39,165 nucleotides of DNA from a virus: IMG/VR virus record IMGVR_UViG_3300020348_000005, positions 1-39,165 of that record. One strand, 5' to 3'. Positions 2 to 37,300 of the stretch are shown piece after piece. Below the pieces are notes generated by a model, which saw only the letters and a list, made by a program, of their open reading frames with translations, searched no databases and was not told the origin of the DNA. A program made the position numbers and the translations under genes. Within the stretch, counting starts at the first letter, position 1; each line of letters begins with the position of its first letter.

Positions 2-1912
2 CTCGGTCTTGCAGGATCAGCCTTTAAGAAAGTGTATTACGATCCCAACCTTGGTCGGCAGGTAGCTATGTTTATACCTGCGGAAGATGTGGTTGTGCCG
101 TATGGCGCTTCTAATCTGGAGACAGCAGAGCGTGTTACACACGTAATGCGTAAGACCAAGAATGAACTCATCAAGTTACAGGCACTGGGTTTCTATCGGC
201 AGATAGACTTAGGTGACCCTGAAACGTTCCATACCGATATTGAAGAAGCTAAAGCAGAGCAAGGTGGTTACACACTAAATGCTGATGACCGCTATACCAT
301 CTGCGAGTTTCACGTTGATATGGTTATTGATGATATAGATCAAGATGATGAAGAGTTACAGATAGCTAAACCCTACGTTATCACTGTAGAGCGTGGCACG
401 GGTGAAGTATTGGCGGTAAGACGCAACTGGAACCCTGACGATCCTTTGACACTTAAGCGTCAACATTTTGTCCATTACGCTTACGTACCGGGATTTGGCT
501 TCTATGGTCTTGGTTTAATTCACATTATTGGTGGATATGCTAAAGCAGGTACTTCTCTTATCCGTCAATTAGTTGACGCTGGTACGCTAAGTAACCTACC
601 GGGCGGTCTAAAAACCCGTGGCCTTCGTGTGTTGGGTGATGATGGACCCATAGGGCCGGGCGAGTTTAAAGACGTAGACGTGCCAAGTGGCAGCATAAAA
701 GAAAACATAATGACCCTTCCTTATAAGGAGCCAAGTCAAACATTGCTTGCGCTACTTAAGCAGATCACGGAAGAAGGTAGGCGACTTGGCGCTATCTCTG
801 ATATGAACATATCGGACATGAGTGCTAATGCTCCGGTTGGAACCACACTAGCTTTATTGGAACGTACGTTAAAACCAATGGCTGCGGTACAGGCGCGGGT
901 GCATTATGCAATGAAGCAGGAGTTCAAACTGCTCCGTGCAATTATTTCTGAGCACGCCCCTGAAACTTATGTATATGTACCAGATCGTGGTGAACCCCGT
1001 GCAAGACGTGAAGACTACGCGATGGTTGAAGTCATCCCTGTTAGTGACCCTAACAGCAGTACGATGGCCCAACGGGTGGTGCAGTATCAGGCTGTGCTGC
1101 AAATGTCACAGACAGCCCCACAGATATACGACCTGCCTCAGTTACACAGGCAAATGATCGAGGTGCTGGGCATAAAGAACGCAGACAAGCTAGTGCCTAC
1201 TAAAGACGATATTAATCCTATTGACCCAGTAAGTGAGAATATGAACGTGTTGGTGGGTAAACCGATAAAAGCGTTTATTTATCAAGACCATAGAGCGCAT
1301 ATTGCTGTACACGAAGCGTTCCTTGCCGATCCTCAGATAGCCGCGTATCTAGGCCAAACTCCAGCAGGACAACAGATTGTAGCTGCTCTTAAAGCACATA
1401 TAGGGGAGCACATGGCCTTTCTTTATAGAGAGCAGATGGAAGCTGAGTTGGGTGCGCCGTTACCTGCGCCTGATGAGGAACTGCCACAAGCACTGGAGAA
1501 ACGCCTCGCAAGACTACTGGCTAAAGCAGGACAACAGCTTACGCAAGAGAAACAAGCTAATGCGGCACAAGCGGCTGCACAGCAACAGGCACAAGACCCT
1601 GTGTTCCAGATGAAGCAAGCGGAGCTACAGATTAAACAAGGTGAACTACAGCGCAAAGCGGCTAAAGACGCTATGGATGGTGCGCTTGAGCAGGAAAGGT
1701 TGAACCTCGACAAAGAGAAAGCAGCCACTACTGCTACATTGGAAGCAAACCGCATAGCCTCGCAGAACGAGCAAAGCGAAGCTAAGAAGGACTTGGAAGA
1801 AGCCAAGGTCATTATTGACATGGCTAAGACTGTAGGAGAAGAACGACGGACTAGAGCTGAGTCGGAAAGGGATAGGGATGAAGCTCTACGCGATGACCGA
1901 GAGGATAGATAA
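2..1912 (+). CDS. Portal protein (5'-truncated by window edge)
   Basis: Portal subunit, the dodecameric ring at the capsid vertex through which DNA is packaged and ejected. The frame is open back to base 2, so the GTG at 32 is internal and the true start lies outside the window. The visible 636 residues include a portal-like core with the stretches FIPAEDVVVPYGASN and GFGFYGLGLIHIIGGYAKAG, and a PVGTTLALLERTLKP segment that I recognise from podovirus portals. The last ~150 residues are Gln/Ala/Glu/Lys-rich and predicted coiled coil, in keeping with the long C-terminal barrel of P22-type portals. Its position ahead of scaffold and capsid genes supports the call. It ends TAATG, sharing one base with the next gene. 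Confidence 0.85.
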   Translation, partial: LGLAGSAFKKVYYDPNLGRQVAMFIPAEDVVVPYGASNLETAERVTHVMRKTKNELIKLQALGFYRQIDLGDPETFHTDIEEAKAEQGGYTLNADDRYTICEFHVDMVIDDIDQDDEELQIAKPYVITVERGTGEVLAVRRNWNPDDPLTLKRQHFVHYAYVPGFGFYGLGLIHIIGGYAKAGTSLIRQLVDAGTLSNLPGGLKTRGLRVLGDDGPIGPGEFKDVDVPSGSIKENIMTLPYKEPSQTLLALLKQITEEGRRLGAISDMNISDMSANAPVGTTLALLERTLKPMAAVQARVHYAMKQEFKLLRAIISEHAPETYVYVPDRGEPRARREDYAMVEVIPVSDPNSSTMAQRVVQYQAVLQMSQTAPQIYDLPQLHRQMIEVLGIKNADKLVPTKDDINPIDPVSENMNVLVGKPIKAFIYQDHRAHIAVHEAFLADPQIAAYLGQTPAGQQIVAALKAHIGEHMAFLYREQMEAELGAPLPAPDEELPQALEKRLARLLAKAGQQLTQEKQANAAQAAAQQQAQDPVFQMKQAELQIKQGELQRKAAKDAMDGALEQERLNLDKEKAATTATLEANRIASQNEQSEAKKDLEEAKVIIDMAKTVGEERRTRAESERDRDEALRDDREDR

Positions 1913-4683: not shown

Positions 4684-5595
4684 ATGGCTATTTCAAGAGC
4701 GCAATTACTCAAAGAGCTTCTTCCGGGCCTGAACGCCCTGTTTGGTCTTGAGTATGCAAAATATGGTGAGGAAGCCGCAGAAATCTTTGAAACAGAGAGT
4801 TCTGACCGTTCCTTTGAAGAAGAAACTAAGTTGTCAGGCTTCGGAGCTGCCCCAGTTAAAAACGAAGGCGCTGCGATTGCTTATGATAATGCCCAAGAAG
4901 CGTACACTGCTCGGTATAACCACGAGACAATTTCTATGGGATTCTCAGTAACTGAAGAAGCTATTGAGGACAACCTGTATGATTCCTTGTCTGCTAGATA
5001 TACTAAAGCACTAGCACGCGCAATGGCTTATACCAAGCAAGTTAAGGGAGCTGCAATATTAAACAATGCGTTTGATAGCAACTTTACTTATGGCGACGGT
5101 GTAGAGCTTTGTTCTACTGCACACCCTCTGGTGTCTGGTGGTACTAACTCTAATGAGCCAGCAACTGGCGCTGATTTGAACGAGACTTCTTTGGAAGCTG
5201 CGGTCATTCAGATTGCTGGTTGGACTGACGAGCGTGGCCTGTTAATAGCAGCCAAGCCTCGTAAGTTGGTAGTTCCCTCGGACCTTCAGTTTGTAGCGAC
5301 TCGTTTGCTAGATACTGAACTACGTGTGAACACATCTGACAACGACATCAACGCCCTACGGCATAACGGTTCAATCCCAGAAGGTTACACAGTTAACCAT
5401 TATCTGACTGATACCAATGCTTGGTTCTTGTTGACTGACGTTCCAAACGGTCTTAAGCACTTCGTGCGTACACCGATGCAAACCTCAATGGATGCTGATT
5501 TCGATACTGGTAACAGTCGATATAAAGCTCGTGAGCGTTATAGCTTTGGCGTATCTGACCCACTAGGTATCTTCGGTTCGCCCGGAGCTAGTTAA
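4684..5595 (+). CDS. Major capsid protein
   Basis: The coat subunit, 303 aa, probably HK97 fold. It starts AISRAQLLKELLPGLNALFG, has an E-rich N-arm-like region (residues ~20-45), then a core with MGFSVTEEAIEDNLYDSL, a helix LARAMAYTKQVKGAAILNNA, the loop AHPLVSGGTNSNEP, and a C-terminal P-domain-like part (PRKLVVPSDLQFVATRLL). These segments match Mu gpT-like and marine podovirus coat proteins as I know them. A strong ribosome site (AAGGAG) precedes the ATG, and an intrinsic terminator follows 14 bases after the stop, as expected for the most highly expressed gene. Confidence 0.88.
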   Translation: MAISRAQLLKELLPGLNALFGLEYAKYGEEAAEIFETESSDRSFEEETKLSGFGAAPVKNEGAAIAYDNAQEAYTARYNHETISMGFSVTEEAIEDNLYDSLSARYTKALARAMAYTKQVKGAAILNNAFDSNFTYGDGVELCSTAHPLVSGGTNSNEPATGADLNETSLEAAVIQIAGWTDERGLLIAAKPRKLVVPSDLQFVATRLLDTELRVNTSDNDINALRHNGSIPEGYTVNHYLTDTNAWFLLTDVPNGLKHFVRTPMQTSMDADFDTGNSRYKARERYSFGVSDPLGIFGSPGAS

Positions 5596-9027: not shown

Positions 9028-9732
9028 ATGGCTACTTCCGGTACTACTGCGTTTAACATGGATTTCACTGAAATCGCTGAAGAGGCGTGGGAACGAGCTG
9101 GGCGCGAAATGCGTTCTGGCTACGACCTACGCACCGCAAGGCGGTCTATGAATTTGCTTACTATTGAGTGGCAAAATCGTGGGATCAATATGTGGACCAT
9201 AGATTCTGGAACTATAAATTTAGTAAGCGGTACAGCTACTTACGATTTACCTGCTGATACAATAGATTTGTTAGAGCAGGTTATTAGAACTAACAGTGGT
9301 AATGTTAGTACACAATCTGATCTTACTTTATCGCGTATTAGTGTGGCTACGTATGCAACTATTCCTAACAAACTAAGTCAGGGTCGTCCCATACAAATCT
9401 ATATAGATAGAGCGCGGGATAATCCTACAGCTACGGTGTGGCCTGTTCCCGACCAAGGCACTGCTGATTCCCCTACGTACGTATTAAAGTATTACAGGAT
9501 GCGGCGTATACAAGACGCAGGGGCAGGTATACAAACTGCGGATGTTAATTTTAGGTTTCTACCTTGTTTAGTAGCGGGGTTAGCTTATTACGTAGCAATG
9601 AAAGACCCAGAATTGGTTACACGTCTCCCTATATTAAAAGCAGCTTACGAAGAAGCATTTGAGTTAGCCGCAGGAGAGGATAGAGAAAAAGCTACTATTA
9701 GTTTAATACCACGTTTATTCGGGACAAATTAA
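9028..9732 (+). CDS. Head-tail adaptor / tail accessory protein candidate (P22 gp4-like)
   Basis: 234 aa. The first part, EIAEEAWERAGREMRSGYDL plus RTARRSMNLLTIEWQNRGIN and MWTID, is a helical hallmark of proteins that attach below the portal in podoviruses. A beta-rich middle (GTATYDLPADTIDLLEQVI, PIQIYIDRARDNPTATVWP, YVLKYYRMRRIQDAG) and a C-terminal helix with AYYVAMKDPELVTRLPILK complete it. By comparison with annotated phages I assign it to the adaptor ring between portal and tail hub; which member (P22 gp4 or T7 gp11-like) cannot be decided by eye. Confidence 0.62.
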   Translation: MATSGTTAFNMDFTEIAEEAWERAGREMRSGYDLRTARRSMNLLTIEWQNRGINMWTIDSGTINLVSGTATYDLPADTIDLLEQVIRTNSGNVSTQSDLTLSRISVATYATIPNKLSQGRPIQIYIDRARDNPTATVWPVPDQGTADSPTYVLKYYRMRRIQDAGAGIQTADVNFRFLPCLVAGLAYYVAMKDPELVTRLPILKAAYEEAFELAAGEDREKATISLIPRLFGTN

Positions 9733-9735
9733 ACA

Positions 9736-10398
9736 ATGGGGCAAAGGTTTGCAGCGGGTCATAACGCATTAGCTATTTGTGATGTGTGTGGTTTTCAGTA
9801 CAGACTAGGGCAGTTGAGAAGTTTAGTTGTTAGAGGTGTAACAACACAAGTAAAAGCCTGTCCTGAGTGTTGGAATCCAGACCAACCGCAAAATAAATTA
9901 GGGGAGTTTCCGGTAGATGACCCGCAAGCTCTTAGAAACCCTAGACCTGACTTTGCAGAACTAGCTGCGAGTAGGGCACATATAGAACCAATTGACCCTT
10001 CTATAGTTGTTGGGTTTGGTAAAGTTGGCGTTGTAACTATATCAGGAATAGTGACTAATACTTTTATAGTAACAGTTGCAACAGGCACAAACTCGTATGG
10101 AACGGGTAATAAATTTTATTTAGGAGGCGTGGTGAGTCCTACAATAGATTTAACAGAAGGACTAACTTACAAGTTTGACCAATCAGATGGTACAAACGGA
10201 ACGCATCCATTACGGCTTTCAACTACGCCCAATGGAACATGGGGTGGAGGGTCAGAATATACAACAGGAGTAACTAAAGTAGGAGTCCCCGGAAATGCAG
10301 GGGCTTACACACAAATAACAGTGCCCGATCCAGCACCTACTTTATATTATTATTGTTCTGCTCATAGTGGAATGGGTGGTCAAGCTAACACACCGTAA
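9736..10398 (+). CDS. Zinc-ribbon/cupredoxin fusion virion protein
   Basis: 220 aa with two modules. Residues 15-45 hold CDVCG and CPEC, a four-Cys zinc ribbon (C15, C18, C42, C45). Residues ~125-215 look like a cupredoxin: FYLGGVVSPTIDLTEGLTY, THPLRLSTTP, a TTGVTKVGVPG loop, and YYYCSAHSGMGG. Candidate type 1 copper ligands are H157, C207, H210 and M213; the spacing C-x2-H-x2-M equals that of amicyanin. The second module recurs in marine phage structural proteins as I recall. Whether it binds copper is not known. The gene sits between adaptor candidates, so a neck or tail structural role is inferred. Confidence 0.65.
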   Translation: MGQRFAAGHNALAICDVCGFQYRLGQLRSLVVRGVTTQVKACPECWNPDQPQNKLGEFPVDDPQALRNPRPDFAELAASRAHIEPIDPSIVVGFGKVGVVTISGIVTNTFIVTVATGTNSYGTGNKFYLGGVVSPTIDLTEGLTYKFDQSDGTNGTHPLRLSTTPNGTWGGGSEYTTGVTKVGVPGNAGAYTQITVPDPAPTLYYYCSAHSGMGGQANTP

Positions 10399-10410: not shown

Positions 10411-10584
10411 ATGAAAAAAGAAAGTAAAAAAGCACCTAAGATTATAGAGCTTCCAAACGAGCCTACAGTTTATAGCCCCGGCACACAGGTCAATCAACCT
10501 ATTAACATGAAGACAAGCGGTATAGAAACTCGTGGTAATGGTGCGGCTACTAAGGGTACTAAAGCAAGAGGTCCGATGGCGTAG
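10411..10584 (+). CDS. 57-aa small conserved phage protein
   Basis: Reads MKKESKKAPKIIELPNEPTV and ends GIETRGNGAATKGTKARGPM plus A. The C-terminal RGxGAATKGxKxRGPMA motif is one I recognise in short proteins beside adaptor genes in marine phages. An AAGAGG site lies 9 bases before the ATG. The stop TAG shares its G with the GTG start of the next gene. The charge is positive. Function unknown; a role in head-neck assembly is a guess from position. Confidence 0.68.
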   Translation: MKKESKKAPKIIELPNEPTVYSPGTQVNQPINMKTSGIETRGNGAATKGTKARGPMA

Positions 10585-11210
10585 TGAACTACACAGAGCT
10601 TAAAACCAATGTTAATGACATTTGTGAGCAAACGTTCACGGATGACCAGCTTGCTATGTTTACTAAACAAGCAGAGCAAAAAATATACACTACTGTTTCT
10701 TTACCTGCACTGCGAAAGAATCAAACAGGGTCATTAACTAACGGTAATAAATATTTAACAATGCCTTCTGGTTTTTTGTATGCTTACTCTTTAGCCATAA
10801 TAAGTGGTAGTGATTACATTTATCTATTAGATAAAGATGTAAACTTTATGCGTGAAGCCTATCCTAACCCTGCTACAACAGGAGTGCCTGTGCATTATGC
10901 TATTTTTGACGAAACTAGCTTTATAGTAGGGCCAACTCCTAACGCTAATTTCGATGCAGAAATACACTTTGCTTATTATCCAGAGTCTATAGTAACTACT
11001 GGTACTTCATGGTTAGGCACAGAGTTTGATTCAGCATTGTTAAACGGTACTTTAGTAGAAGCAATTAGATTTCAAAAAGGAGAACCAGATATGGTGGCTC
11101 TTTACGATAATATGTATGCACAGTCGTTAGCGTTACTTAAAAACTTGGGTGACGGTAAATTGCGCGAGGATACATACCGAGGTGGTCAAGTTAAAGTGGA
11201 GACGGCTTGA
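10584..11210 (+). CDS. Second head-tail adaptor-type protein
   Basis: 208 aa from GTG 10584 (TAGTG coupling). The N-terminal helices NYTELKTNVNDICEQTFTDD and QLAMFTKQAEQKIYTTVSLP are typical of phage adaptor proteins of the type named after coliphage SU10; beta strands follow (GNKYLTMPSGFLYAYSL, EIHFAYYPESIVTTG) with a Trp-Leu-Gly-Thr motif near residue 145, and a C-terminal helix (MYAQSLALLKNLGDGKLRED). Probably builds the neck with the product of 9028. Assignment by recalled family resemblance, not by search. Confidence 0.58.
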   Translation: MNYTELKTNVNDICEQTFTDDQLAMFTKQAEQKIYTTVSLPALRKNQTGSLTNGNKYLTMPSGFLYAYSLAIISGSDYIYLLDKDVNFMREAYPNPATTGVPVHYAIFDETSFIVGPTPNANFDAEIHFAYYPESIVTTGTSWLGTEFDSALLNGTLVEAIRFQKGEPDMVALYDNMYAQSLALLKNLGDGKLREDTYRGGQVKVETA

Positions 11211-13556: not shown

Positions 13557-15026
13557 ATGGCTAATTTATCTGATCTTCTTCCTCAAGGGGGAGGGCAAAA
13601 CAACACAGACTTTGTAGCCGATGGCAATATCAGCGCGGGTGCGCCTGTTATTCTTACGAGTGATGGGAAAGTAAGTGGGATTTCAGAAACTGCGGGGAGT
13701 ATGGGAACTCCTGACGACCAAGGAACCTCTTACCAAGTAAGTGGTACTTCTGGTGCGGCTTATCACATTACCAATAATAGTATTATTTTATGTTGGCCCG
13801 CAGGAGCTTCTAATTATTACCCTACTGCTGCCGTAGCCACTATAAGTGGTACAACTATGACGATGAACTCTCCGACAGTAATTACTTCAAGTGGCACGAG
13901 TTTTTGTAGATGTGTGTATGACCAAACGCAAAACGTAGTGGTTTTTTATTATAAACTTAGGGGTGGCTCTTCGATAAAATGTAAAGCTGCTACAGTTTCT
14001 GGAAGTACTTTTTCTTTTGGTAGTGAAGCATCTGCTTTTTCTGGTTCTAGTTATGGTGATGCCAACGAAGGCGATATATCTAATTTAGACGATTCAAAGG
14101 TGGTTATTTGTTGGGGGAATGTATCAGGTTCATCTGCACAAGTAGTTAGTATTTCAGGGACGAGCTTAACTATGAATACAGCAGTAAGTGTATTCGGTGG
14201 TAATACTATTCCTTTGCGTATGGCAAGTGGCAAAAAAGGGGAATTTGTTTGTGCAGGTGGAAGTACAAGTAAGATGAGTTTTGTTGCTTGTACGGTGAGT
14301 GGTACGACAATAACGGCGGGAACAGCAACTGACATATCTGGTGGCACTTCACAATATAATGACATAGCTAGTGGTTTTTGGAATGGGTATACCTCTCCAG
14401 AGTCTACTTATATTGCGGCTTATCACGATCCCGGAGCTTCGGGAGGTACATCGCTAGCTCGTGTAATCACAGTTTCAGGAACAACACTTACTCTAGGGGC
14501 TACAACTTCTTTAACGGCTGACCCCGATTACAACGAGCCGGCAATGGGTTGGGGTGGTTCTGCTACACAAGCCGTGTATTATTATCGTAGTAATTCCTCT
14601 TCTAGTGACGGAAAAGTGGTCGAGTTGAACTATTCAGGAACCACTATTACTGAAGGCTCAATTACCACAGTAGGTTATAAAAACTATAGTAATTGGGGTG
14701 TGACTACAGATCAGTCCGTAAAAAAATCTATTGTGCTTTATATGGATGGGTCAAACAGCGATGCAGCAGAGGTAAATGTTTTTAGTCCTACATCAAGTAA
14801 CCTCACCGCAACCAACCTCTTAGGTCTTGCCCCATCAGCCATCAGCGACACAGCGACAGGCACGATAAACACTTGGGGTAGTAGAAACGAAGCGCAGTCA
14901 AGTCTGACGATAGGTAGCGATTACTACGTTCAGACAGACGGCACTTTATCCACCGATACAGGCGGTCAGCTAATCGGCAACGCGATCAAGACAAACCAGA
15001 TTAATATCAAGGATTATACGGGATGA
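13557..15026 (+). CDS. Receptor-binding-type tail protein, paralog 1
   Basis: 489 aa, first of three tandem paralogs. The N-terminal anchor is NLSDLLPQGGGQNNTDFVAD followed by GAPVILTSDGKVS. The core has repeated short strands of the type xVSGTTxTxGxxT and D-rich turns (YDQTQNVVVFYYKLRGG, YIAAYHDPGASGG), consistent with a beta-propeller. The C-terminal module (ATNLLGLAPSAISDTATGTI, then SDYYVQTDGTLSTDTGG) is shared with the next two genes. Ends ATGA, overlapping paralog 2 by 4 bases. Host recognition is inferred from family knowledge of marine fibres. Confidence 0.7.
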   Translation: MANLSDLLPQGGGQNNTDFVADGNISAGAPVILTSDGKVSGISETAGSMGTPDDQGTSYQVSGTSGAAYHITNNSIILCWPAGASNYYPTAAVATISGTTMTMNSPTVITSSGTSFCRCVYDQTQNVVVFYYKLRGGSSIKCKAATVSGSTFSFGSEASAFSGSSYGDANEGDISNLDDSKVVICWGNVSGSSAQVVSISGTSLTMNTAVSVFGGNTIPLRMASGKKGEFVCAGGSTSKMSFVACTVSGTTITAGTATDISGGTSQYNDIASGFWNGYTSPESTYIAAYHDPGASGGTSLARVITVSGTTLTLGATTSLTADPDYNEPAMGWGGSATQAVYYYRSNSSSSDGKVVELNYSGTTITEGSITTVGYKNYSNWGVTTDQSVKKSIVLYMDGSNSDAAEVNVFSPTSSNLTATNLLGLAPSAISDTATGTINTWGSRNEAQSSLTIGSDYYVQTDGTLSTDTGGQLIGNAIKTNQINIKDYTG

Positions 15027-16549
15027 CGAATCTTAGCGATCTTTTTCCTGCGGGAGCGGGGAAGCAAGTTAGTTTTACAGCCAGCGGTAACGTCACCTCG
15101 TCTGGTAAGCCTGTTATCTTGAACAGTGATGGGACAGTGAGTGAGGTAGGTTTGAGCGCCGCTGCACTTGATTCAGTTGAGGGTGAGTTTAATGACTATA
15201 GTTCAAGCACTTCTGCTACTAGCGACACCTCTTCTGTAAGAGCCGTATACAATCCGGATCAAGATAGGGTTTACTTTTTTTGGCATTATGGCTCGCAAAT
15301 TTGGTATTCTTCAGGCACTTACAATGGCACGTCTTGGAGCTTTACCTCTGCTGTAAATTCTACGGTAGCCTGTTCCACCGCCGTAGGTTTAAATATTGAC
15401 GTAGCTTATGACAGCTCTGAACAGAAAGGCATTATTGTTTGGGAAGATGGAACTGGATATGCCTCTCGTTCTGTACGTGCTGCTCTTTTAACTTTTTCAT
15501 CGGGTACGGTTACTTGGGTAGATAGCGGTACTCAAATTAACTATTATTCTTTGGGGCCATCTGTTGCATCTGACAACAACGGCACTTTTATGGTTTTTTG
15601 GGAATACTACCCGTTTAACGAAGCAAATGTTACAAAAGGGACTATATCTGGTTCGACTGTTACTTACGAAAGTAGGAATGCTATTAATTCTAACAGCGGT
15701 TATTATTCGTCCAACTACCCCGCTATTTATGTTGCAGAGAAAAGCCGATATTTAGTACAAACTTTTAACTCTTCAGGGGGTGTAGTTTGTAGCGTAATAG
15801 AAGACAACGCAGGAACTAATCCAACAGTTCAATCAAATACCAATATAACTAATCTTACTCGTTCAGAAGCAAAAAGTATCGCTTATGATGCAAGCGCTGA
15901 AACAATTATGGTTTTTGCGGAAAATGGGAGTACTTATCCAACCGTTCAGGCTTGCACATTTACAGGGACAAATAACGCTGTTACTCAGGTAGGGTCGGCT
16001 GTTGTCTTAAAAAGCGCGACTATTGCCAATCAACTTTATTCTTTAAAATCTCAATATAATAGTGATGCAGCTCAAACACTTGTTACTCTTTCTTTTTCAA
16101 GCACTAGCACTCCTTCTCAGTACCTCGTTCTTTCTGGAACTACCCCTACCATTAGTGTCAGCCCCACTGATTTATACACTGACACCACGAATACGTTTCA
16201 GGACTTAACAGAAGGCCCAACAGGGACAGGTAGAACTTATATAGCCGTATACGGTAGTCAAACAAGTGGCAACTTTGTTCTTTGGGATGGGTATGCACAA
16301 ACTTACACTATGCCTATGACAAATGTCACCGCATCTAACTTCCTCGGCATATCAGACGAAGCCATCTCAAGCGCAGCCAGTGGAAACATAACAATCAAAG
16401 GCGGCATAGCGGCTACAGGTTTGAGTTCGTTAACTCCTGCAAGCGATTATTACGTTCAGGATGACGGGACAATATCGACTGTCAGCAGCAGCGTCAAAGC
16501 GGGTAAAGCCTTGTCAGCCACCGTTTTAAATCTGGAGTATACATCGTGA
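15023..16549 (+). CDS. Receptor-binding-type tail protein, paralog 2
   Basis: 508 aa. The anchor NLSDLFPAGAGKQVSFTASG and KPVILNSDGTVSEVG match paralog 1. The core holds propeller-like repeats with YNPDQDRVYFFWHYG, YDSSEQKGIIVWEDG and YDASAETIMVFAENG, each a D-turn followed by hydrophobic strands. The C-terminal module is ASNFLGISDEAISSAASGNI, GGIAATGLSSLTPA and SDYYVQDDGTISTVSSS. The core differs almost completely from paralog 1 whereas the ends are close, as in module-swapping fibres. ATGA overlap with the previous gene; its stop overlaps the GTG start of paralog 3 as GTGA. Confidence 0.7.
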   Translation: MTNLSDLFPAGAGKQVSFTASGNVTSSGKPVILNSDGTVSEVGLSAAALDSVEGEFNDYSSSTSATSDTSSVRAVYNPDQDRVYFFWHYGSQIWYSSGTYNGTSWSFTSAVNSTVACSTAVGLNIDVAYDSSEQKGIIVWEDGTGYASRSVRAALLTFSSGTVTWVDSGTQINYYSLGPSVASDNNGTFMVFWEYYPFNEANVTKGTISGSTVTYESRNAINSNSGYYSSNYPAIYVAEKSRYLVQTFNSSGGVVCSVIEDNAGTNPTVQSNTNITNLTRSEAKSIAYDASAETIMVFAENGSTYPTVQACTFTGTNNAVTQVGSAVVLKSATIANQLYSLKSQYNSDAAQTLVTLSFSSTSTPSQYLVLSGTTPTISVSPTDLYTDTTNTFQDLTEGPTGTGRTYIAVYGSQTSGNFVLWDGYAQTYTMPMTNVTASNFLGISDEAISSAASGNITIKGGIAATGLSSLTPASDYYVQDDGTISTVSSSVKAGKALSATVLNLEYTS

Positions 16550-19227
16550 GCAATTTATCTGATCTACTTCCTGCGGGAGCGGCAGCCAAACAACTGACCT
16601 TTACTGACAGTGGTAGCGGTATCTCTTCAAAAGCGCCAGTAGTACTTAATAGCGATGGTACAGTTTCTCCTATTACGATTGGTGCTGATTCCGCAGGGAC
16701 TCCTGTTTTTTTTAGCGGCAGTTCTGCTTCAAAAACACAAGGAGGTATGGCCTCTAACGGCAGCGGAGAAATTCTTTATGCGTATAGAGCCAATAACGGT
16801 TACGGTACAGTGCAAGTTGTTAATTACGCCACGCCCGGAGGAAGTATTACTTACGGAACTCCCGTGACTTTTTTAAGTTCAAGCACTGGCGGTTTTTCTT
16901 GTGCGTATGATATACAAAGTGGTTATTACGTTATCGCGTATACTAATAGCGGTAGTAATTTTGTGGGTGAGTGTCGGTGTGTGTCGGTGTCTGGAACTAC
17001 CCCTACTGTGTATTCAGCGTCTTCGCTTAGTTCCTACCCTTATCAAGTTAACCGTACTGATTTAGAGTATGACCCTACACAGCAGATGACATTTCTGGCT
17101 TATGACTATAGTTATGATGATGGGTCTAGCTTTTTTTACGCAGGTGGTCAAGTAAGGTTGGTTCAACCTTCTTCCGCTTATAACCCTCCGACTCTTCATG
17201 GCAATTCAGATGCGGAGGGTAGTGGGTCATGGACTTTTCTTGGTCGTGCCTCTATGGTTTACGACCCTAGTGTCTCTAAAACAGTTATTCATTTCTGTAA
17301 TACTTTAGGCAACGCATTCTCTAAAATTATATCGGTTTCTGGAACGTCATTAAGTTTCAGTGCAAATACGGCTTTTCATTCTGGGTATACCACAGACCCT
17401 ACTGCTACTTATGACTCTAACCAAAACGCACAAGTAGTAGCTTTTAGAGATAGCAGTAATAAAGGGTACGTTGTTGCAGGAACAACAGGAGCCTCCAGTA
17501 TTACTTATGGCACTGACGTAGAGTTTGGTGACGGCAATCAAGTCCACTCTGATTCCAATGCTTTTGGTGTAGCTTATGATGCCAACGCTCAAAAAGTAGT
17601 TATTGTGTATGCAGACGATGATGACAGCGATAATGGAAAAGTAGTCTTCGCAACCGTAAGTGGTACAGCCGTTACTGTAACAACTCCTATCTATTTAGAT
17701 GGTTCAAGTGGAACACCTGTCAGGCAGTTTGCTAGTGTTTATGATGCAACAGGCAAGCGTGTCATTGTTAGTTATACATTTAACTCAAACGACTCGACTA
17801 GAAATAATGCAGTTGAACCCGGAGCGACTAACCTAACAACGGCCAATTTCGTAGGCGTAGCCGACAGCGCAATATCAGCCAGTGCTGCGGGTAGCGTGAT
17901 CGTGCAGGGGGGTACGGTAAGCGGGCTAACTGATCCGTTTGGTACGGTCACTCCGACTTACGGAACTCCTGTAACTGGTTATACGTCTGCCGGAGCAGAA
18001 AATTACGGGATGGTTTATGATTCGACTAATAACCGATTAGTCGTTGCTTACAAAGACGGTAGCAATTCTGATTATGGTACAGCAGTCGTAGGCGAATTGT
18101 CAGGTACTTCTATAACTTGGGGTACGCCTGTAGTTTTTAGCAGCACTGCAAGTGGGGATAGTGGTTTAGCTTTAACTTTTGATACTAACGTCAATCGTGT
18201 CGTTATTGCTTACCGTGATGGTGGCAACTCTGATTATGGTACGGCGATTGTGGGGGCAGTTAGCGGAAGTGGTTCAGGAAGCACCATAGCTTTCGGTTCA
18301 GCTACAGTGTTTGAAAGTGCTAACAGTTTTTATATTGGCGCAGGATTTGATCCCGTTGAAAACAAAGTATTGTTGACTTATCGTGACAACGGCAATTCCA
18401 ACTATGCTACTTACATCATCGGTACTGTAACAACAGGGCCAGATGCTATTTCTTTTAATACCGCAGCTACTCTCAACGGCTCCGATGTAATGGATTACAA
18501 TGCAAGAAATATTGCTTTTGATACTTCACAAGGTAAGTTTTTAGTAACTTACACTGTAAGCGGGGTATTAAAAGCAATGAATTTAAGCATTTCTTCTGGT
18601 TCTGGTACGGTTGGTACGGTAAGCACATACGGGTCGGGTAGTCCTTATATTTGGAATCCTGAAACAATATACGATTCAGGGAATTCTAAAACAGGCATTA
18701 TCTATGGTGATTCAAGCGGTAACTACCCCTTATATTTTTCTGTCATAAGCATGAGTGGATCGAGTGTCACTATTAATACCCCAGTAACAATTAGTTCGCA
18801 GGGTAATGGGGCTTTGTACGGAACTGCTCTAGCTTACGATCCAGATTTAGGGAAAATAGGTCTTGCCTTTCGTGATGACCATACCAGTGGTACGAGTTAC
18901 CAAGGATCAGCGTTTTATGGAAGTATTTCAGGGACTACGAGCACTTGGGGCACAAAGTCAACGTGGTTTTCAAGTTCTTTAGGTTCTTCTCAAACAGGTA
19001 TTGGAGCTGCCTACGACACTTCCTCTAATAAATTTGCATTTGTCGGTTCTGCTAACGCAGGGAACGGAGTTGCCGTAGTAAGTACATTAGCCACCACTAC
19101 TTTTACCACGGGAACCAAATACTACGTCACCACCTCCGGTGGGTTTTCGAGTTCAGCAGATAGCCCTAGCGTCAATGCGGGAATAGCAATTTCAACAACA
19201 TCTTTACTTTTGAATGGAGACTCATAA
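16546..19227 (+). CDS. Receptor-binding-type tail protein, paralog 3 (double-length)
   Basis: 893 aa from GTG 16546. Anchor NLSDLLPAGAAAKQLTFTDS and APVVLNSDGTVSPIT, then a first propeller-like block. At residues ~427-456 lies a copy of the C-terminal module (ATNLTTANFVGVADSAISAS), after which a second propeller-like block follows with repeats of ~54-56 residues: YDSTNNRLVVAYKDGSNSDY, FDTNVNRVVIAYRDGGNSDY, FDPVENKVLLTYRDNGNSNY. It ends with a degenerate module (KYYVTTSGGFSSSADSP). The layout looks like a fusion of two paralog copies. Probably a tail fibre or spike tip; function inferred. Confidence 0.7.
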   Translation: MSNLSDLLPAGAAAKQLTFTDSGSGISSKAPVVLNSDGTVSPITIGADSAGTPVFFSGSSASKTQGGMASNGSGEILYAYRANNGYGTVQVVNYATPGGSITYGTPVTFLSSSTGGFSCAYDIQSGYYVIAYTNSGSNFVGECRCVSVSGTTPTVYSASSLSSYPYQVNRTDLEYDPTQQMTFLAYDYSYDDGSSFFYAGGQVRLVQPSSAYNPPTLHGNSDAEGSGSWTFLGRASMVYDPSVSKTVIHFCNTLGNAFSKIISVSGTSLSFSANTAFHSGYTTDPTATYDSNQNAQVVAFRDSSNKGYVVAGTTGASSITYGTDVEFGDGNQVHSDSNAFGVAYDANAQKVVIVYADDDDSDNGKVVFATVSGTAVTVTTPIYLDGSSGTPVRQFASVYDATGKRVIVSYTFNSNDSTRNNAVEPGATNLTTANFVGVADSAISASAAGSVIVQGGTVSGLTDPFGTVTPTYGTPVTGYTSAGAENYGMVYDSTNNRLVVAYKDGSNSDYGTAVVGELSGTSITWGTPVVFSSTASGDSGLALTFDTNVNRVVIAYRDGGNSDYGTAIVGAVSGSGSGSTIAFGSATVFESANSFYIGAGFDPVENKVLLTYRDNGNSNYATYIIGTVTTGPDAISFNTAATLNGSDVMDYNARNIAFDTSQGKFLVTYTVSGVLKAMNLSISSGSGTVGTVSTYGSGSPYIWNPETIYDSGNSKTGIIYGDSSGNYPLYFSVISMSGSSVTINTPVTISSQGNGALYGTALAYDPDLGKIGLAFRDDHTSGTSYQGSAFYGSISGTTSTWGTKSTWFSSSLGSSQTGIGAAYDTSSNKFAFVGSANAGNGVAVVSTLATTTFTTGTKYYVTTSGGFSSSADSPSVNAGIAISTTSLLLNGDS

Positions 19228-28594: not shown

Positions 28595-31330
28595 ATGGTA
28601 ATGCAACAAGCAGGTATAATTGATCCCCGTGCGCTTCAACAAGCTCGACAGAATCCTCGTGTGCAAATGGCAGAAGGGTTGGCAAGCAGTGGTATTGCAG
28701 GTGCATTGAAAGAGCTAATTGATGACAGGGTAACAATGGAAGCAATGGAGCTAGTCGCCGCTGCGGATAGAGATGAAGCAGTTAAAATGACTGATAAGCC
28801 CAGTATCAAAGACAGTAATACACAGGGTATTAATCAGCTTGTGCAGACACTTGCCCCCGGAATGCAACTACGGAACAACCAGATACAAAAAGCGCAAATG
28901 CAAAAAATGCTAGGTCTAGGCGGTCAACCTGCCCCCAACATGCGTATGGCTGACGGTGGGATTGTTGGGTTTGAAGAAGGAGATAAAGTTGAAGGCAATA
29001 ATTTTAGTCGGCATGAATTTATGTATGGTCCAATACTCAGGAAACTAGGGATAGGCCCAATGTATGACTTTGGTGGTGGGCTAAACGAAGACTTTATGAA
29101 CAGGAGAAAGAAACGAGCTGCTGTAGAAAAGTATGGACCAGATGCTGCTATGCCAGTAGGTAGTAATCAACCTATACCTATGCTTATGCAAAAGTATGGT
29201 AGTAAAAGGGTAATGGAATTTTTTGACAGACAAAAAGAATTAAAAGAAGAAAGTAAGTCTGTAGCGCCTGAGTATAGAGATGCTTTTAATAATAAAGAAG
29301 CTCTCTTTATATCAGACTTTTCTGACATGTTAGAGGATATAAACCAAGCTCAAAGTGGTCCCTTAGATATTAGTGAAGAGGCGGGAATGGGTTTGTCTCC
29401 TATGGCTCCTATCCCTACCCCATTAAACGCCATTAGAAGACCCCAAAGAGGTTCTAAAATGGCAGACGGCGGTATCGTTGCACTCAAGGAAGGTGGCTTT
29501 CCAGACCTAAGTGGAGATGGAAAAGTTACGCAAAAAGATATTCTTATGGGTCGTGGTGTAGTGGATAAAGCACAGGGCGGCATTGTTGGTTTTGATAACG
29601 GCGGTTCTGTTATTCCTCAAGTGGGTATATTTGGACCAGCGATATATGACTTCACTGATTTTTTGCTTAGTAAGGGTATAGAAAACATAAGTGATTTATC
29701 CTCCAGTGCTATTGAGAATCTAACAAGAGAGTTTGAAGAACAGAAAGCAGCAGGGGATGCCCGTGCTGAATTAGCAGATATGGGAGATGCACCGGGATCA
29801 AGAGGTACTCCACAAGCTAGACCTGAAATTGCAGAAGTTGTAGAGCGTGAAGCGGTATCTACTGGTAGACCTCCTGTAGAACAAATGGGTAATTTAGAAC
29901 AAGTTTTAAGAGGAGGAGTATTAGGACTCCTTGATAATATTAAACGAGAACCGGGTTCTACTCTAATGGCAGATATGGGGGATGCACCGGGATCAAGAGG
30001 CACTCCACAAGCTAGAGCTGATAAAGTGACCACAACTGATTTCCCTGAAATACCAGCTTATTTATATGAAGCCTCTCCAGAAGAACTGGCATCTGCGGAT
30101 CGTGAACAAACTCTACCAGCTCAAACAGATGATAATTTAAGGTTACCAGTAAGGTTGCCGGGTGCTGACCTAAGAGACTCTGTAGCTGGTGCGGCAAAAG
30201 ATTTAGCTCAAGACTTGTTTATGGGTGGATATTCAGCAGAGGAACTATTAGACAGAACTATGCCAACTAGAATGCAAGCCTTTAGAGAGGGGCGTGGTCT
30301 GCTAGACTTAGACGAGTATGAAAGAGGTGCTGTTGGTAGAGAAATGCTTACTTTTGTACCTAGTTATTTAAATACTATATTGTACCCCAACCCTGAAAAC
30401 GAAAGGTTAGGTACTGCTACTCTTGGAGGAATCGCAGAAAGTGTGGAACCAACGGCAAGAGGGTTCTTAGGTCTTGGCCGTAGGGAACAAGCGCAAGACG
30501 AAACGGAAGCAGCTAAAAATATAATTGCAGAAGGTGGGACTCCTACTGGACAGGTAAATCTTGAAGCACCTTCAATAGAAGAAGAAGGTATTCAAGTTGG
30601 GGACGTTGCGCCGTCAGTGAAGAAGGGAACGGAAACGGCTGAACAGGTACAAGCAGGTCTTGCTGCTTTTGACAGTGATGTATCTACAGGGACAGGAACA
30701 GGAACAGGAACTGGAACAGAAAGTGCTGTCAATGCTCTTGGCGCACTTGAGTTAAGCGGAGAGGGTAGTGGTGCAGGTTTAAGAGACCAAGTAAAACGTA
30801 TTATAGACAGAGAAGAAGACCCAGTGCGTATAGCTCTCGATTTTGGAAGAGCTTTTGGTAAAGGTAATACACCATTCCAAGGACTACAACTGGGAGGCGA
30901 AGTACTAGACGCTGCTGAGAATAAACTTGATACGCAAATAACTGCACTAGAAAGACTAATCCAAGCTGCTGATATTACTGATGCTCAGATGAGAATAGCG
31001 CAGGAAGAACTAGCAGTTAAACGGGAGCAAATCGACGCTATACGTTCTGGTAATCTATACGATCTTCTTGCGTCAATAAATACTAACTTAGAACGCCAAC
31101 GACAATTTTCTGCGGGGTTTGGGCTTGATGTAAGTGAGGAAGTAAGAGAGCAGTTAAGTCCCTTTAATAACGCACCAGCTTATAACCAAGTGGTAAGTGA
31201 AGTACAGGAGGCATTTAGGCAACGAGGTATAGACCCAGCGCGTAACCAAGACCAATATCAAAGTGCTTTAAATAGGGCACTGGCTGTAAAAGCACAACAG
31301 TTAGATGCGGAGTTAAGAGGTGGCTTTTGA
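28595..31330 (+). CDS. Large internal virion protein with GGIV repeats
   Basis: 911 aa; ATG at 28595 or 28601, preceded by AGAGGA. The N-terminal ~100 residues are helical. Then come three copies of a GGIV motif: MADGGIVGFEEGD (118-130), MADGGIVALKEGG (289-301) and AQGGIVGFDNGG (326-337), separated by a dockerin/EF-hand-like loop DLSGDGKVTQKD (304-315). A 16-residue segment, ADMGDAPGSRGTPQAR, occurs twice, 65 residues apart. A TGTGTGTG run (hexamer repeat) follows at ~700. The C-terminal third is long coiled coil with many Gln and Glu. It overlaps the next gene by 11 bases. Probably an internal or ejected protein; no enzyme domain recognised. Confidence 0.6.
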   Translation: MVMQQAGIIDPRALQQARQNPRVQMAEGLASSGIAGALKELIDDRVTMEAMELVAAADRDEAVKMTDKPSIKDSNTQGINQLVQTLAPGMQLRNNQIQKAQMQKMLGLGGQPAPNMRMADGGIVGFEEGDKVEGNNFSRHEFMYGPILRKLGIGPMYDFGGGLNEDFMNRRKKRAAVEKYGPDAAMPVGSNQPIPMLMQKYGSKRVMEFFDRQKELKEESKSVAPEYRDAFNNKEALFISDFSDMLEDINQAQSGPLDISEEAGMGLSPMAPIPTPLNAIRRPQRGSKMADGGIVALKEGGFPDLSGDGKVTQKDILMGRGVVDKAQGGIVGFDNGGSVIPQVGIFGPAIYDFTDFLLSKGIENISDLSSSAIENLTREFEEQKAAGDARAELADMGDAPGSRGTPQARPEIAEVVEREAVSTGRPPVEQMGNLEQVLRGGVLGLLDNIKREPGSTLMADMGDAPGSRGTPQARADKVTTTDFPEIPAYLYEASPEELASADREQTLPAQTDDNLRLPVRLPGADLRDSVAGAAKDLAQDLFMGGYSAEELLDRTMPTRMQAFREGRGLLDLDEYERGAVGREMLTFVPSYLNTILYPNPENERLGTATLGGIAESVEPTARGFLGLGRREQAQDETEAAKNIIAEGGTPTGQVNLEAPSIEEEGIQVGDVAPSVKKGTETAEQVQAGLAAFDSDVSTGTGTGTGTGTESAVNALGALELSGEGSGAGLRDQVKRIIDREEDPVRIALDFGRAFGKGNTPFQGLQLGGEVLDAAENKLDTQITALERLIQAADITDAQMRIAQEELAVKREQIDAIRSGNLYDLLASINTNLERQRQFSAGFGLDVSEEVREQLSPFNNAPAYNQVVSEVQEAFRQRGIDPARNQDQYQSALNRALAVKAQQLDAELRGGF
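29774..30015 (+). repeat. 47-bp direct repeat pair
   Basis: Copies at 29774-29820 and 29969-30015 differ at only two third-codon positions and encode identical peptides containing MGDAPGSRGTPQAR. They are 195 bp apart, a multiple of three. Near-identity over 47 bp suggests a recent or recombination-maintained duplication; deletion between the copies would remove 65 codons in frame. Confidence 0.85.
30686..30718 (+). repeat. Hexanucleotide microsatellite (ACAGGA)
   Basis: Five and a half tandem copies of ACAGGA with two substitutions encode the Thr-Gly run within the large virion protein gene. Slippage would add or remove Thr-Gly pairs without shifting the frame. Confidence 0.8.
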
Positions 31331-34300
31331 TACAAAAGGAGCATTGGCAGCAGGTTTTTCTGAAGCAGATATCGTAAAGTATTTGTCGGAAAAAACAGGC
31401 TTTGATCTTGCGGGTGCTCAAGCCGAGGGCTTTGAAGAGTCTGCTATTTTAGACTATGTATTAAATAAAGTTAATCGCCCCAGTACACCTTCATTTACAT
31501 CTCAACCAACACAACAAACACAATTTACTAGTGTAGATGATATTGTAGGATCGGTGTTACAAACATACCCAAGCACTGGTTCTGGTTCTGGTTTTTTAAG
31601 GCAGACCGCAGATATCCCTGTTCAATTCCTAAAGGGAACAACTACAGGACTAAAGTATATTACTGACGCATTCGGTGCAGATAACACCTTATCTCGCTCT
31701 TTAAGTGGCGCAGAAGACTTTTTTGATGACCTCCTTTCTGCACAGGCTAAACAGGATCAACAAGAGATATCCCGTATTATGCAGGAAGCAGAAGATAAGG
31801 GGATGAAGGAGCAAATCTTAGCGGGCCTAGAGGCTTTTGCTACTGCTCCAGTAGACTTAATATCTAACGCTTTCGGTACTTCTGTTCCTACTTTGGTTGC
31901 TGGATTGCTTGCCCCCGGAAGTGCTGCCGCTTTAACAGGCCGTGCATTAACTGCTGCTCAAAAAGCTAGGATAGGTGCTGGTGTAGCTACTGGAGTAGGT
32001 ACGTTAACAGGCTTGGGTATTACTAAAGATGCTACCTACGATGCTGTCTTCCAAGAACTAACTAACTCAGGTGTATCAGAAGCAGAAGCTAAAAGTGCAG
32101 CACAAGAAGCACAGGAATATGGTGGAGAGAATATAGACAATATTCTTTTAGGGGGTGCGTTGGGCGCACTTGCTGCAAGGTTTGGTTTAGAACGAGCTGT
32201 ATTTACTACCAATATTGGGAAAAAGTTAGCTGGGGAAGTTACAGAAGAAGGGCTAGATAAGCTACTTAAAAAAGGAGTTATCCCCACGGCAACACGCACA
32301 GCTTTAGAAGAGGCAATCCCTGAAGCTCTACAAGGTGGACAGGAACAGTTTACACGTAATATAGCACTGCAACGCCAAGGGTTTGATGTGCCGTCTTTTC
32401 GAGGCGTGACTGGTGGAGCTACGCTAGAAGGTATAGTAGGCACTCCAATAGGTGCTTTGGCAGGGGTGCGTGAAGCCAGTATTTACAACCAAGATACTGC
32501 GGCCCTACGTAACTTACTTGCTGACGATGCGGATACAGCGGTAGAAGAAGACACCACTGAAGAGATAGAGATAATAGACCCAAATGAGTTAACTGAGGAA
32601 GAAACTTTTGAATTATATACTGCGTACGAAAAAGCAGAAGACGCAGAGATAGACAGGGTAGATAGACTTGAAGAAGAAGAACTAGCAGCTTTAGATGCAG
32701 GGGAGGAAGTCACCCGTAAAAATTACGTGCGTGTGGGTAAGTATTTTGTCCCACAAGACATGGGAAATGTTGGAAGTCTGACAGAGGAAGATTTAACTGA
32801 ACGTATAGAGCGTGTGTTAGAAGCTAGAAACAAAATGAATGCCCTTGGTAGGGGTATGTCACGCTCGATTGACTTGGTTAATGAGTTAGAAAAGATTGAA
32901 GCTATACAAGATGCTGATGCAAAAAGAAAAGCATTACAAGATAAAAACCTAACAGGAGAGCAATTACTTGTCGAGTTAGAAGCGGCTAAAAAAAATGCTG
33001 CTTCATTTAACGAATTTGTTATGCAACTAACAGGAAAGGAACCACTAGATGCTTCCTATAAGAACGCTCAAAAAGCAGCGTTAGAAGCGGAGCAGGAATC
33101 CTATGCTGAAGCAGAACGTAATATAAGAAGGTTTAACACAGATAACGCCGCTAAAATACAAAGACTATTAGACACTAAAGCGGAAGATTTGACCCGACAA
33201 GAGCGTGCAGTCAGGCGATACTTTAGTAAGAAAGGTATACCTAAAGACGGACGAGAAGTAGCACTGTTAAGTATAGCTGCCGATGTAGCAGAGGGAGATG
33301 CTACAGTTGACGAAATTAAGCAAAGCAGAGAACAACAACCCAATATCCCTAGTGATGAGTTAATTGACGATGCGTTTAATGATTTTATAGGTGAAAAACG
33401 CCAAGGTAGATTAGCTCCTACAAAACAAAAAGACGCAGTACTTGCAAGGCAATGGATAGAAGATAACTTGCAGGGCACTCCTGCAACACAGCTTAATGAA
33501 GCCTTGGACGCATTTAAAACAGAACGAAAGCAATCCATATTAGGGTTAGCTAGAGCACTTAGACGCTCTAAAAAAATTACAGAAACACAGGCTAATACTG
33601 GTGTCCTACGCGCAGGGATACCTAAAGGAGAGGATTTTGGAACGGTTAGAAGTGCAGAAGTCCCTCCAGTTGATACAGGACGAACAACAGATCAACAGGC
33701 TGAAGCAGAAGCTCTTCAACAGATGGGGCTTAAACAACAGCCTCGCAGCGAAGCGCGTAAAAAAGAATTCAATCGGCTAAAAAGAGAAGCTAAAACAAAG
33801 ATAGACGAAGAATTTGCTGAAGCACAACAAGGTATAACTAGTGAAGATATCGCGGCACAGGTGAAACGCCAAGGTATCACTTTCCCTCAAGACATTCCTA
33901 ATGAAGTAAGAGAAGTAGCAGAACGGGGTAACTTAAATCAAACCATAGAGCAATTGTTAAAAGACGAACCAAAAGAAATACAGATTTTATTACGGAATAT
34001 GAGAAAGATGGCTGCTAATACTAAGATACGTATAGCACCTCTTCCTGAATCGCCCAGAGGAGGAATGTTTGATGAGGGTGCAAATGAAATTGTATTGGAC
34101 CCAGAGAGAGGGTTAAACAAAAAAGTATTTTTCCATGAGTTAGCACACGCTGCTTTGTCCCGTAGGTTAGACAATCCTGATTCAAAAGAAGCAGAAGTAT
34201 TTTTTAAGTTTTTCAGCCAAATACAATTACAGATGAGTGGCTTCTATGGCGGTAAGGATTTACACGAGTTCGTGTCTGAGTTTATGGGTAATGAAAATTT

Positions 34301-37300
34301 TCGCGCTTTACTTAAAGACTTAAAAGCACCAAGAAGTGATAGCTTTTATAAACGAGTCATAGACGCAATACTTGAATTTTTTGGTATTCGTGAAAGGCAA
34401 ACCGCATACGACAAAGGGTTTGAGTTTATTGAAGAAATTGTAAACCTTGGTGCAGAAAGTGAAGCACCCCCTATCGAAAGAGTATTCTTTTCCAATGTTA
34501 CTCCTGATGTAGTAGGTGAAGAAGCTGCAAAGCTACCACCTTTGAACAAAACAAAAATAAACAAAATGACTGAAGCGGTTAGTGAAAGCCGTCCTCTTAC
34601 AAGAGCTATATTTAAAGCCTTACGTATGGATAACTTTGTAGAGTTATATGGGAAATACATACCCAGTTTAAAATTTATTACAGATGCTGTAGAGAAAAAA
34701 CAAGGTTACCAAGAAAACAAAATTGAAGAGAGTCAAGAGGTCTACAAAGGGTTAGTAGCTTTTGCCAGAAGGTTTCAAAGGCAAAGTGAACAGTTAGGTG
34801 ATCTAGCAAATCAAATTCGTTTAGATGAAGTAGACATACTTGACCCTAATTTTATTACCAAGTACATAGACCAAGTAAAGAAACGAAGCGAAGACAATAA
34901 ACCTCCTTCACAGGCAGACATAGAAACTAAGAAAGAAGCCATTAAAAAACACAAAGAAACTTTACAACGACTCGATAAACAAACAAATGGGCTTGCTAGT
35001 AAAGTATATAAGAAGTTAAGAACTGAATACGATGGGATGTTTAAAGAGTACAAAAAGTTTGTATTAGGAACCATAAAAAATGAAGACTTACGCGATAAAG
35101 TAAGACAAGATTTTATTGCTAATGAACCTGTAGCGGGGTATGTCCCTTTCAGAAGGTTTGGAGAGTTCATTCTTCAGTACATGGATGCTGATGGTAACTA
35201 CACGGTAGAAGCATTTGAATCTTACAGTGATCGAAGAAGAGCTATTCAACGGTTGGGTTTGAAGAAGTCTGTTGAAGAAGGAAGCGAACTTACAAAAGAA
35301 AATCCGTTAAACCAATATATAATAACAAACAGTGTGCAAAACACTAGTTTTAAACCCATTGCAGGGACTGAACATTTTCTTGCAAAAGTTTACCAAAACA
35401 TGGACAAAAATTTAACAGACGAACTACGAGCGCAAAATAAAACACAAGAAGAAATAAAGGAAGCAATCAAAGGTTTAGATACACAAAAGCAAGCTATGTA
35501 CGAAACTTATTTAGATATGTTTCCTGAAAACTCTTTGGTGAAAGGTTTTAGAAAAGCGCGTAATGTTCCGGGGATGTCAAATGATTTAGCCCGTGCTTAT
35601 GGAGAAACCTCTGTTAGGTTTGCTCGAAAAATGGCTAATACTGTATACAATGGAGAACTATTAAATGCGTTTGATAGAGTAAGAGCAGAGACAGCTAATT
35701 ATGAAAGACGCTATGGCGATAAAGCCAATGTACCTGATCCCTTAACCATACAAGCATTAGGTAATGAAATTGATTCTCGTCAAAACTTTACAGTAAACCC
35801 GCAATACTCTACTCCTATTAGACTAGCCTCAACAGGAAGTTTTACTTTATTTCTTGCAGGTAATATATCTTCTGCATTAATTAACTTAACGTCAATACCG
35901 TTACTAGGACAACCCCTACTTAACCGTGATTTTGGTGGGCGAGAAGTAGCTGCTTTAAGTAAAGCGATGGGTCTAGCGATTAACAATAAATGGCAAACAA
36001 GCAAAGATTACAAAGCGTTGTATAAGAAACTTATGGACCACGCCCAACTGCGGCACACGATGAACAGGGAAATACAAGAAGGTACTCAACAAAGCACTGA
36101 AGAGTTTAATACTCTTACTATGAAAGTAATGAATATTTTATCTATACCTTTTTCTGCAACGGAGAAATATAACCGTGCAACGATAGGTATAGCTGCTTAT
36201 AACCTAGCCAAACAAAACCCAGATCGTTTACCTGAACAGTATCGTGGAGAAGAGGGAGCTTTAGAGTACGCACTTAAAGTTGTTAAGGATGTAAACACAT
36301 CTGGTATGGCAGCAACGGGTCCAAGGTTGATGCAAGGAGATTTTGCGGGGGGTCTTGGACGAGCAACGTTTACCTTTAAATCTTTTATATGGCAAAGTGC
36401 TTATGTAACGGCGAGGGCTTTTTACCAATCTGTTAAAGGGGAAACACCTGCTGTAAAACTAGCTGCGTTCAGACAGTTAATGTTTATATACGGAATGAGT
36501 TTTGGTGTAGCAGGTGTATTTGGTATGCCTTTCTTTGGCGCTGCGGCTACGATGGCTAATATGATAATGGCTATGGAAAATGCGTTAGATGATGAAGAGG
36601 AAGAACCTTTTAATTTACGCCGTGCTGTAATGGATATGTATCCTGAATGGGTTACTAAAGGCCCAACTAACTATCTGAGTAACATAGAATTTTCCAACCG
36701 TGCCAGTGTAGCAAATGGTTTACTATTTAGAGAAGACCCCTATGAGATTGAAAAGTTTGGGTATGTAGGCGCGGCAATGATGCAAGCCTTTGGACCACTA
36801 GGTAATTTTGCTCGTAACGTGCCTTACGGTTTTGACTTAATGGCAAGAGGAGAAATTGCACGAGGGGTAGAACAGTTCTCCCCTAGCTTTCTGCGTAATG
36901 CTTTTAAAACGTATCGGTACATGGACGAAGGTGTCGTTAGTTCAGATGGACTACCTATCATGGAAGACCTAGATGGATGGCTTTTAGCAAAACAATTTCT
37001 TGGGTTTAGTCCTGCTAACCTATCTAGTATCTATGAAACTCGTGGTCTTGTTAAAGATTACGAAAATAAGGTAATGAACCGCAGACAAGCGCTATTGGAA
37101 GCACGTTTTAATGCTTTAACGGCGAGAGATTTTACGGAAGTAAATCGAATAGACCAACGTATAAATCAGTTTGCAAGCATATACCCTCGTTTGATTAACC
37201 CACGCACGTTAGAAAGTTCTTTTAAATCAAGAGCTTCTGCTCTTAGAGAGTACAAGTATGCGTTACGTTTTGATAAAAACTTTTTACCTTATGGACAAAA

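Follow-up and report, generated by a model that had tools for sequence, protein, structure and literature searches.

The window, by which we mean the whole stretch of DNA analysed here, is a virus record of 39,165 bases. It contains an open reading frame (ORF) that runs from an ATG to a stop codon and codes for a protein of 220 amino acids (Table 1). The translation has cysteines at residues 15, 18, 42 and 45 (codons starting at 9778, 9787, 9859 and 9868), followed by H157, C207, H210 and M213, and an evident signal peptide is absent. A first-pass annotation had assigned the gene to a virion operon, in agreement with its surroundings: the portal and the major head protein are encoded in the same window, and genes of SU10-type adaptors lie just before and after it. 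According to the excerpted text of PMC9509320, the adaptor of phage SU10 is a dodecamer that sits between portal and nozzle and docks the long tail fibres. As members of the SU10_adaptor family flank the ORF on both sides, we regard it as a neck gene.

Table 1. Features of the window discussed in the text
Feature	Position	Strand	Basis
Neck-associated virion protein, 220 aa, N-terminal four-Cys domain and C-terminal cupredoxin	9736..10398	+	ORF, translation, predicted model
N-terminal four-Cys (zinc-ribbon-like) domain, residues 1-83, putative virion anchor	9736..9984	+	Cys positions, homologues
Cupredoxin domain, residues 104-220	10045..10395	+	predicted structure, profile-profile comparison
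H157, predicted Cu ligand, H-P-L motif	10204..10206	+	sequence, homologue alignment
Ligand loop C207-x2-H210-x2-M213 (predicted)	10354..10374	+	sequence, homologue alignment, profiles
Head-tail adaptor protein, PF24175 SU10_adaptor, directly upstream of 9736-10398	9028..9732	+	Pfam E 1.6e-11
Second adaptor-like protein, PF24175, phrog_2941, downstream	10584..11210	+	Pfam E 1.2e-19
Portal protein, context	32..1912	+	phrog_1216
Major head protein, context	4684..5595	+	phrog_371

Two other regions of the window deserve mention. Positions 31320-37331 code for a 2003-amino-acid protein, the C-terminal part of which matches a DarB-like antirestriction family (phrog_10089, E 9e-59). Three consecutive ORFs at 13557-19227 resemble paralogues, having similar starts (xNLSDLxPxG) and ends; a PHROG match is absent for the two of them that were tested.

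The fold of the C-terminal domain was predicted with AlphaFold2. In the full-length model, based on an alignment of 74 rows, residues 111-220 have pLDDT of 95-97 per block and form the Greek-key beta-sandwich that characterizes the cupredoxin superfamily. All 50 PDB rows listed for this model by a structural aligner are cupredoxin-fold proteins. The best among the listed matches is the N-terminal cupredoxin domain of Hyphomicrobium nitrite reductase (2dv6_A; Z 9.6, rmsd 2.5, 97 residues aligned); rusticyanin (2cal, Z 8.5), small laccases (Z about 8) and Nitrosopumilus purple cupredoxin (5fc9, Z 7.7) are listed as well. An earlier model of the domain only (pLDDT 78.8) recovered the same class of proteins with lower Z. 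Foldseek found no match in the PDB at E 0.001 or better. Its list includes SufI, a cupredoxin fold without copper, so copper cannot be concluded from the fold by itself. Among viral structure models, 56 matches were obtained at E 0.001, and the names near the top are those of marine phage structural proteins. "Beta-sandwich proteins" of giant viruses (Pithovirus, Marseillevirus; A0A481Z6J5 and similar) also match the model in this library.

Type 1 copper sites have the ligand order H...C-x2-H-xn-M, with two histidines, one cysteine and one methionine, and the window domain has the same order. The ligand positions and the C-x2-H-x2-M spacing stand in the translation exactly as the first-pass annotation had given them. 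In the predicted model, H157 precedes strand 159-162 and C207 ends strand 203-207, with loop 208-214 behind it, a placement that fits a type 1 copper site.

Homology to copper proteins became visible at the level of profiles. A Pfam search of the 220-residue protein returned no family and none of 23 homologues matched PF00127 (Copper-bind), the gathering cut-off of which is not reached by the phage domain. PDB sequence searches with the window protein gave nothing meaningful (best E 0.2 and 0.21); the same search with gp9 of cyanophages, which carries the domain, gave only N-termini of T4-type gp9/gp10 and chance matches. A Prochlorococcus genome encodes an apparently exported PF00127 protein with the motifs HPFYIKT and C-x2-H-x4-M. 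Compared with the profile of this exported Copper-bind family (L296, L300-L307), the profile of the window domain reached probabilities of 92-95, against a maximum of 2.5 for 100 reversed or column-shuffled decoys. In the alignment, H157, C207 and H210 fall on the cellular ligands, and the methionine is reached across a loop that is two residues longer in the cellular protein. Direct comparison of the window-domain profile with plastocyanin PetE failed (probability 1.6). A profile built from eight phage domains, among them five C-termini of cyanophage gp9, scored 99.0 with the exported Prochlorococcus protein, 87.2 with PetE and 98.8 with the window domain; the window domain is thus linked to PetE through a phage set that bridges the gap. 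Homology to a cellular copper protein is detectable by way of the exported Copper-bind proteins. By its predicted fold and by profile homology the C-terminal domain is a real cupredoxin, yet Pfam's cut-off leaves it outside PF00127.

A marine gammaproteobacterial gene (L088:4248-5372, and L090) also appears to encode an exported cellular relative, with a lipoprotein-like start, cadherin repeats and a domain bearing all four ligands (HCHM); in L088 it adjoins a molybdopterin oxidoreductase gene. Loci from SAR11 were considered as a cellular gene family and rejected: the inspected one (L094) is prophage-like, with a T7-type tail fibre (PF03906), unlike the cellular lipoprotein-like gene of L088, and a PF00127 search of the SAR11 genome behind L094 found none.

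The domain had been compared in the first-pass annotation to amicyanin rather than plastocyanin. Amicyanin ligands are spaced C-x2-H-x2-M, and this part is correct, as the phage domain has the same spacing. Kinship is another matter: a sequence link to amicyanin was not found, the top structural matches are the nitrite reductase N-domain, rusticyanin and small laccases, and the closest cellular sequence relative found is spaced C-x2-H-x4-M in the manner of plastocyanin. Amicyanin is absent among the structural matches listed for either model, an absence that is not decisive. The resemblance is one of loop length only.

The N-terminal domain of the window protein contains two CxxC knuckles, C15-x2-C18 and C42-x2-C45, as expected of the zinc ribbon proposed for it, but the description suits only some of its homologues. 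Across 221 ORFs the four positions read CCCC in 96, SSGE in 54, CTGV in 27 and SSHE in 26, with other combinations in the rest. The cysteines are replaced while HCHM is kept in 52 ORFs with SSGE and 27 with CTGV. To judge from these sequences, the putative zinc site is optional and the cupredoxin ligands are mostly not. The recurring swaps (SSGE, CTGV, SSHE) also suggest that the fold may be held with or without zinc. Pfam zinc-finger matches to this domain remain below cut-off, and phrog_28581 is matched by 11 of 20 homologues. A PDB sequence search gave nothing meaningful (best E 0.69), and tblastn against phages returned none at 1e-5 and weak matches at E up to 10.

The joining of a four-Cys domain to a cupredoxin in a structural gene is borne out by sequence, model and neighbours. 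Of 150 four-Cys ORFs, 124 end in a cupredoxin and 26 do not; a further 77 cupredoxin ORFs have no four-Cys domain. In 188 of 202 testable cases the gene immediately before the four-Cys ORF is an adaptor gene, and a second adaptor-like gene follows within 400 bases in 167 of 221, a count that includes contig ends. The cupredoxin itself is fused to an SU10-type adaptor N-terminus in 24 ORFs and inserted inside the second adaptor-like protein in six related ones, so that three neighbouring neck genes share one module. In phage 023Pt (L200:5998-7694) the adaptor bears the cupredoxin, and a four-Cys domain in a gene of its own follows immediately. The domain also occurs in tail fibres of pelagiphages, in structural proteins of cyanophages and, in T4-like cyanophages, at the C-terminus of gp9, the N-terminus of which is PF07880. 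At E up to 0.01 it was detected in 369 of 50,697 phage records, named after Synechococcus, Cyanophage, Prochlorococcus, Pelagibacter, Methylophilales and marine virus, with one seawater phage and one uncultured phage, and in none of 72,556 plasmids. In marine phage virions the cupredoxin is a portable module.

Conservation of the ligands was assessed in several sets of homologues. A ligand-blind scan, for which only window residues 104-155 served as query, retrieved 87 domains in 80 loci. All four ligands are present in 79 of them, so the pattern goes beyond chance; in six, the two histidines and the cysteine are lost together (five YALM, one QSTY), and two are cut by contig ends. Among homologues Cys or Met is not commonly missing, and the predicted fold is a cupredoxin; neither outcome named in the first-pass annotation as refuting it was seen. 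HCHM was found in 64/64 and 182/182 domains of pattern-fetched loci and in 277/293 of the pooled domains, figures that overstate conservation, as some fetching patterns contained the ligands; the ligand-blind set and a whole-domain tblastn set are the fairer tests. By tblastn, 17 of 22 fetched phage records carry at least one HCHM domain, and so do six of six further records (five gp9, one S-CAM4 protein); these 28 records were chosen for variety, are not random and represent few of the 369. The five cyanophage gp9 examined all have the four ligands.

The manner of loss is more telling. Among 52 domains with less than 70% mutual identity, from which the contig-truncated L259 and L268 were left out, the numbers keeping four, three, two, one and no ligands are 42, 0, 0, 5 and 5, compared with 24.9, 20.2, 6.1, 0.8 and 0.0 expected under independent loss. 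In four of the ten losses (L195, L204, L208, L211) the alignment stops before the last two ligand columns and the sequence was judged by eye, and long-branch degenerate repeats in L196, L205 and L212 may not be true copies of the domain. A poorly resolved tree gives six ligand changes by parsimony, at least three of which are forced by supported branches. The ligands thus stand or fall together, which is what a metal site would be expected to show. Copies that kept the fold and lost the ligands (YALM, QSTY, DATM and others) are located in cyanophage structural and fibre proteins, gp7 and adaptor fusions, which shows that the module can work without metal. Six adaptor-fused domains (L283, L284, L285, L287, L288, L289) have retained the cupredoxin fold signature with H, C and H lost (YALM or QSTY) and appear to be natural apo versions.

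The first-pass annotation had asked whether the virion carries copper or reuses the fold. Reuse of the fold without ligands does occur in a minority of phages; for the window protein, set-wise retention of the ligands favours a metal site. That the ligands behave as a set, and that the Cys4 site is often lost in the same proteins, makes a retained metal site likelier than bare reuse of the fold. Conserved metal-binding residues in most of the marine-virus relatives suggest that the particles may carry copper. Our preferred explanation, held with slightly more confidence than doubt, is that the domain is a neck-displayed module of the plastocyanin superfamily with a complete type 1 copper ligand set, most likely binding copper and serving a stabilising or affinity role. 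The four-Cys domain would hold the cupredoxin beside the SU10-type adaptor ring, and the cupredoxin would lie exposed on the surface at the neck and where the fibres attach, serving in display or adhesion. There H157, C207, H210 and M213 would most likely bind a copper ion. Uptake may happen while the particle assembles, but seawater, or the lysate once the phage is released, is the likelier source. The metal may lock the ligand loop and stabilise the exposed beta-sandwich; alternatively, it may give the surface a metal-dependent affinity.

A counterpoint to copper is that the protein is presumably made in the cytoplasm, where free copper would be scarce. If so, copper would be acquired late or from a meagre supply, and zinc or Cu(I) may be bound instead. 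The ligands might therefore bind a metal for structure only, or another metal such as Zn(II) or Cu(I) from the host cytoplasm, the site being a lock of the fold that plays no part in copper chemistry at sea. That the ligands are retained or lost in concert fits any metal, and the neighbouring four-Cys domain is itself a likely zinc site. Against this, the homologous cellular proteins bear the signature of the plastocyanin/azurin family, and Cys-His-His-Met is the classical copper ligand set; we regard this explanation as a serious minority candidate. The beta-sandwich could also have been reused as an Ig-like display module in which the metal site is a functionless relic. The ligand-free copies point in this direction, and tailed phages do display Ig-like modules, as with T4 Hoc in the excerpted text of PMC10385173. 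A decaying relic should lose its ligands one by one, yet domains with exactly three or two were not found and 42 of the 52 keep all four, which makes a relic improbable. An electron carrier acting in the infected cell, like the plastocyanin metabolic gene (petE) reported from some cyanophages in the excerpted PMC2984593, would accord with the distant homology to PetE. This is very hard to reconcile with a domain that is fused to or inserted within virion proteins, lacks an evident signal peptide and occurs also in phages of heterotrophs such as Pelagibacter and Methylophilales, and we give it hardly any weight.

The question moves from one contig to cultured phages, since gp9 of T4-like cyanophages, a core baseplate protein, bears the same domain. 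Because the five gp9 examined carry it with all four ligands, copper in phage particles is testable with existing isolates. If copper binding is true, virions of very abundant viruses would contain a redox-active or metal-dependent site, and this would matter for how the particles adsorb and decay and for the speciation of copper in the sea. Otherwise, a cofactor fold has become a building block of the virion and, puzzlingly, retained its ligands. More speculatively, and we hold this as a tentative idea that may well prove wrong, the majority of T4-like cyanophages in the sea, and many podophages there, could carry copper in their particles. Metallated cupredoxins at the neck, at the joint of baseplate and fibre (gp9) or on tail fibres would act as metal switches loaded from seawater or as receptor-affinity sites, the particles would form a pool of protein-bound copper, and the availability of copper would tune adsorption.

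The open-licence PMC texts searched yielded no paper that places a cupredoxin in the virion of a phage. Among cellular proteins, the plastocyanin/azurin family PF00127 shares with the phage domain the cupredoxin fold and the aligned H...C-x2-H...M ligands; it differs in that the phage loop has two residues fewer between the second histidine and Met (x2, not x4) and the phage domain is part of a virion protein. Three-domain nitrite reductase (N-domain; 2dv6, 6tfo) and rusticyanin (2cal, 1rcy), periplasmic redox proteins, provide the best listed structural matches (Z 9.6, 9.3, 8.5), whereas their identity to the phage domain is only about 16-20%. The neck proteins of the SU10_adaptor family include both genes flanking the window ORF, but the excerpted account of SU10 (PMC9509320) mentions no cupredoxin, in contrast to the window with its cupredoxin-bearing neck protein. 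Metal-ligand motifs are known in phage tail proteins, including those of a marine phage: the excerpted PMC11705849 describes HxH iron-binding sites in the tail fibres of T4 (gp37) and alterophage R22Y. Those sites are octahedral and of unrelated fold, while the window domain is a cupredoxin with Cys/His/His/Met. A further parallel is offered by the Ig-like display modules, described in excerpted texts for T4 Hoc (PMC10385173) and the SU10 nozzle (PMC9509320), which likewise join a beta-sandwich to virion proteins. The phage cupredoxin differs from them in its conserved set of metal ligands, and by analogy it is predicted to work like such a module with its cofactor site kept.
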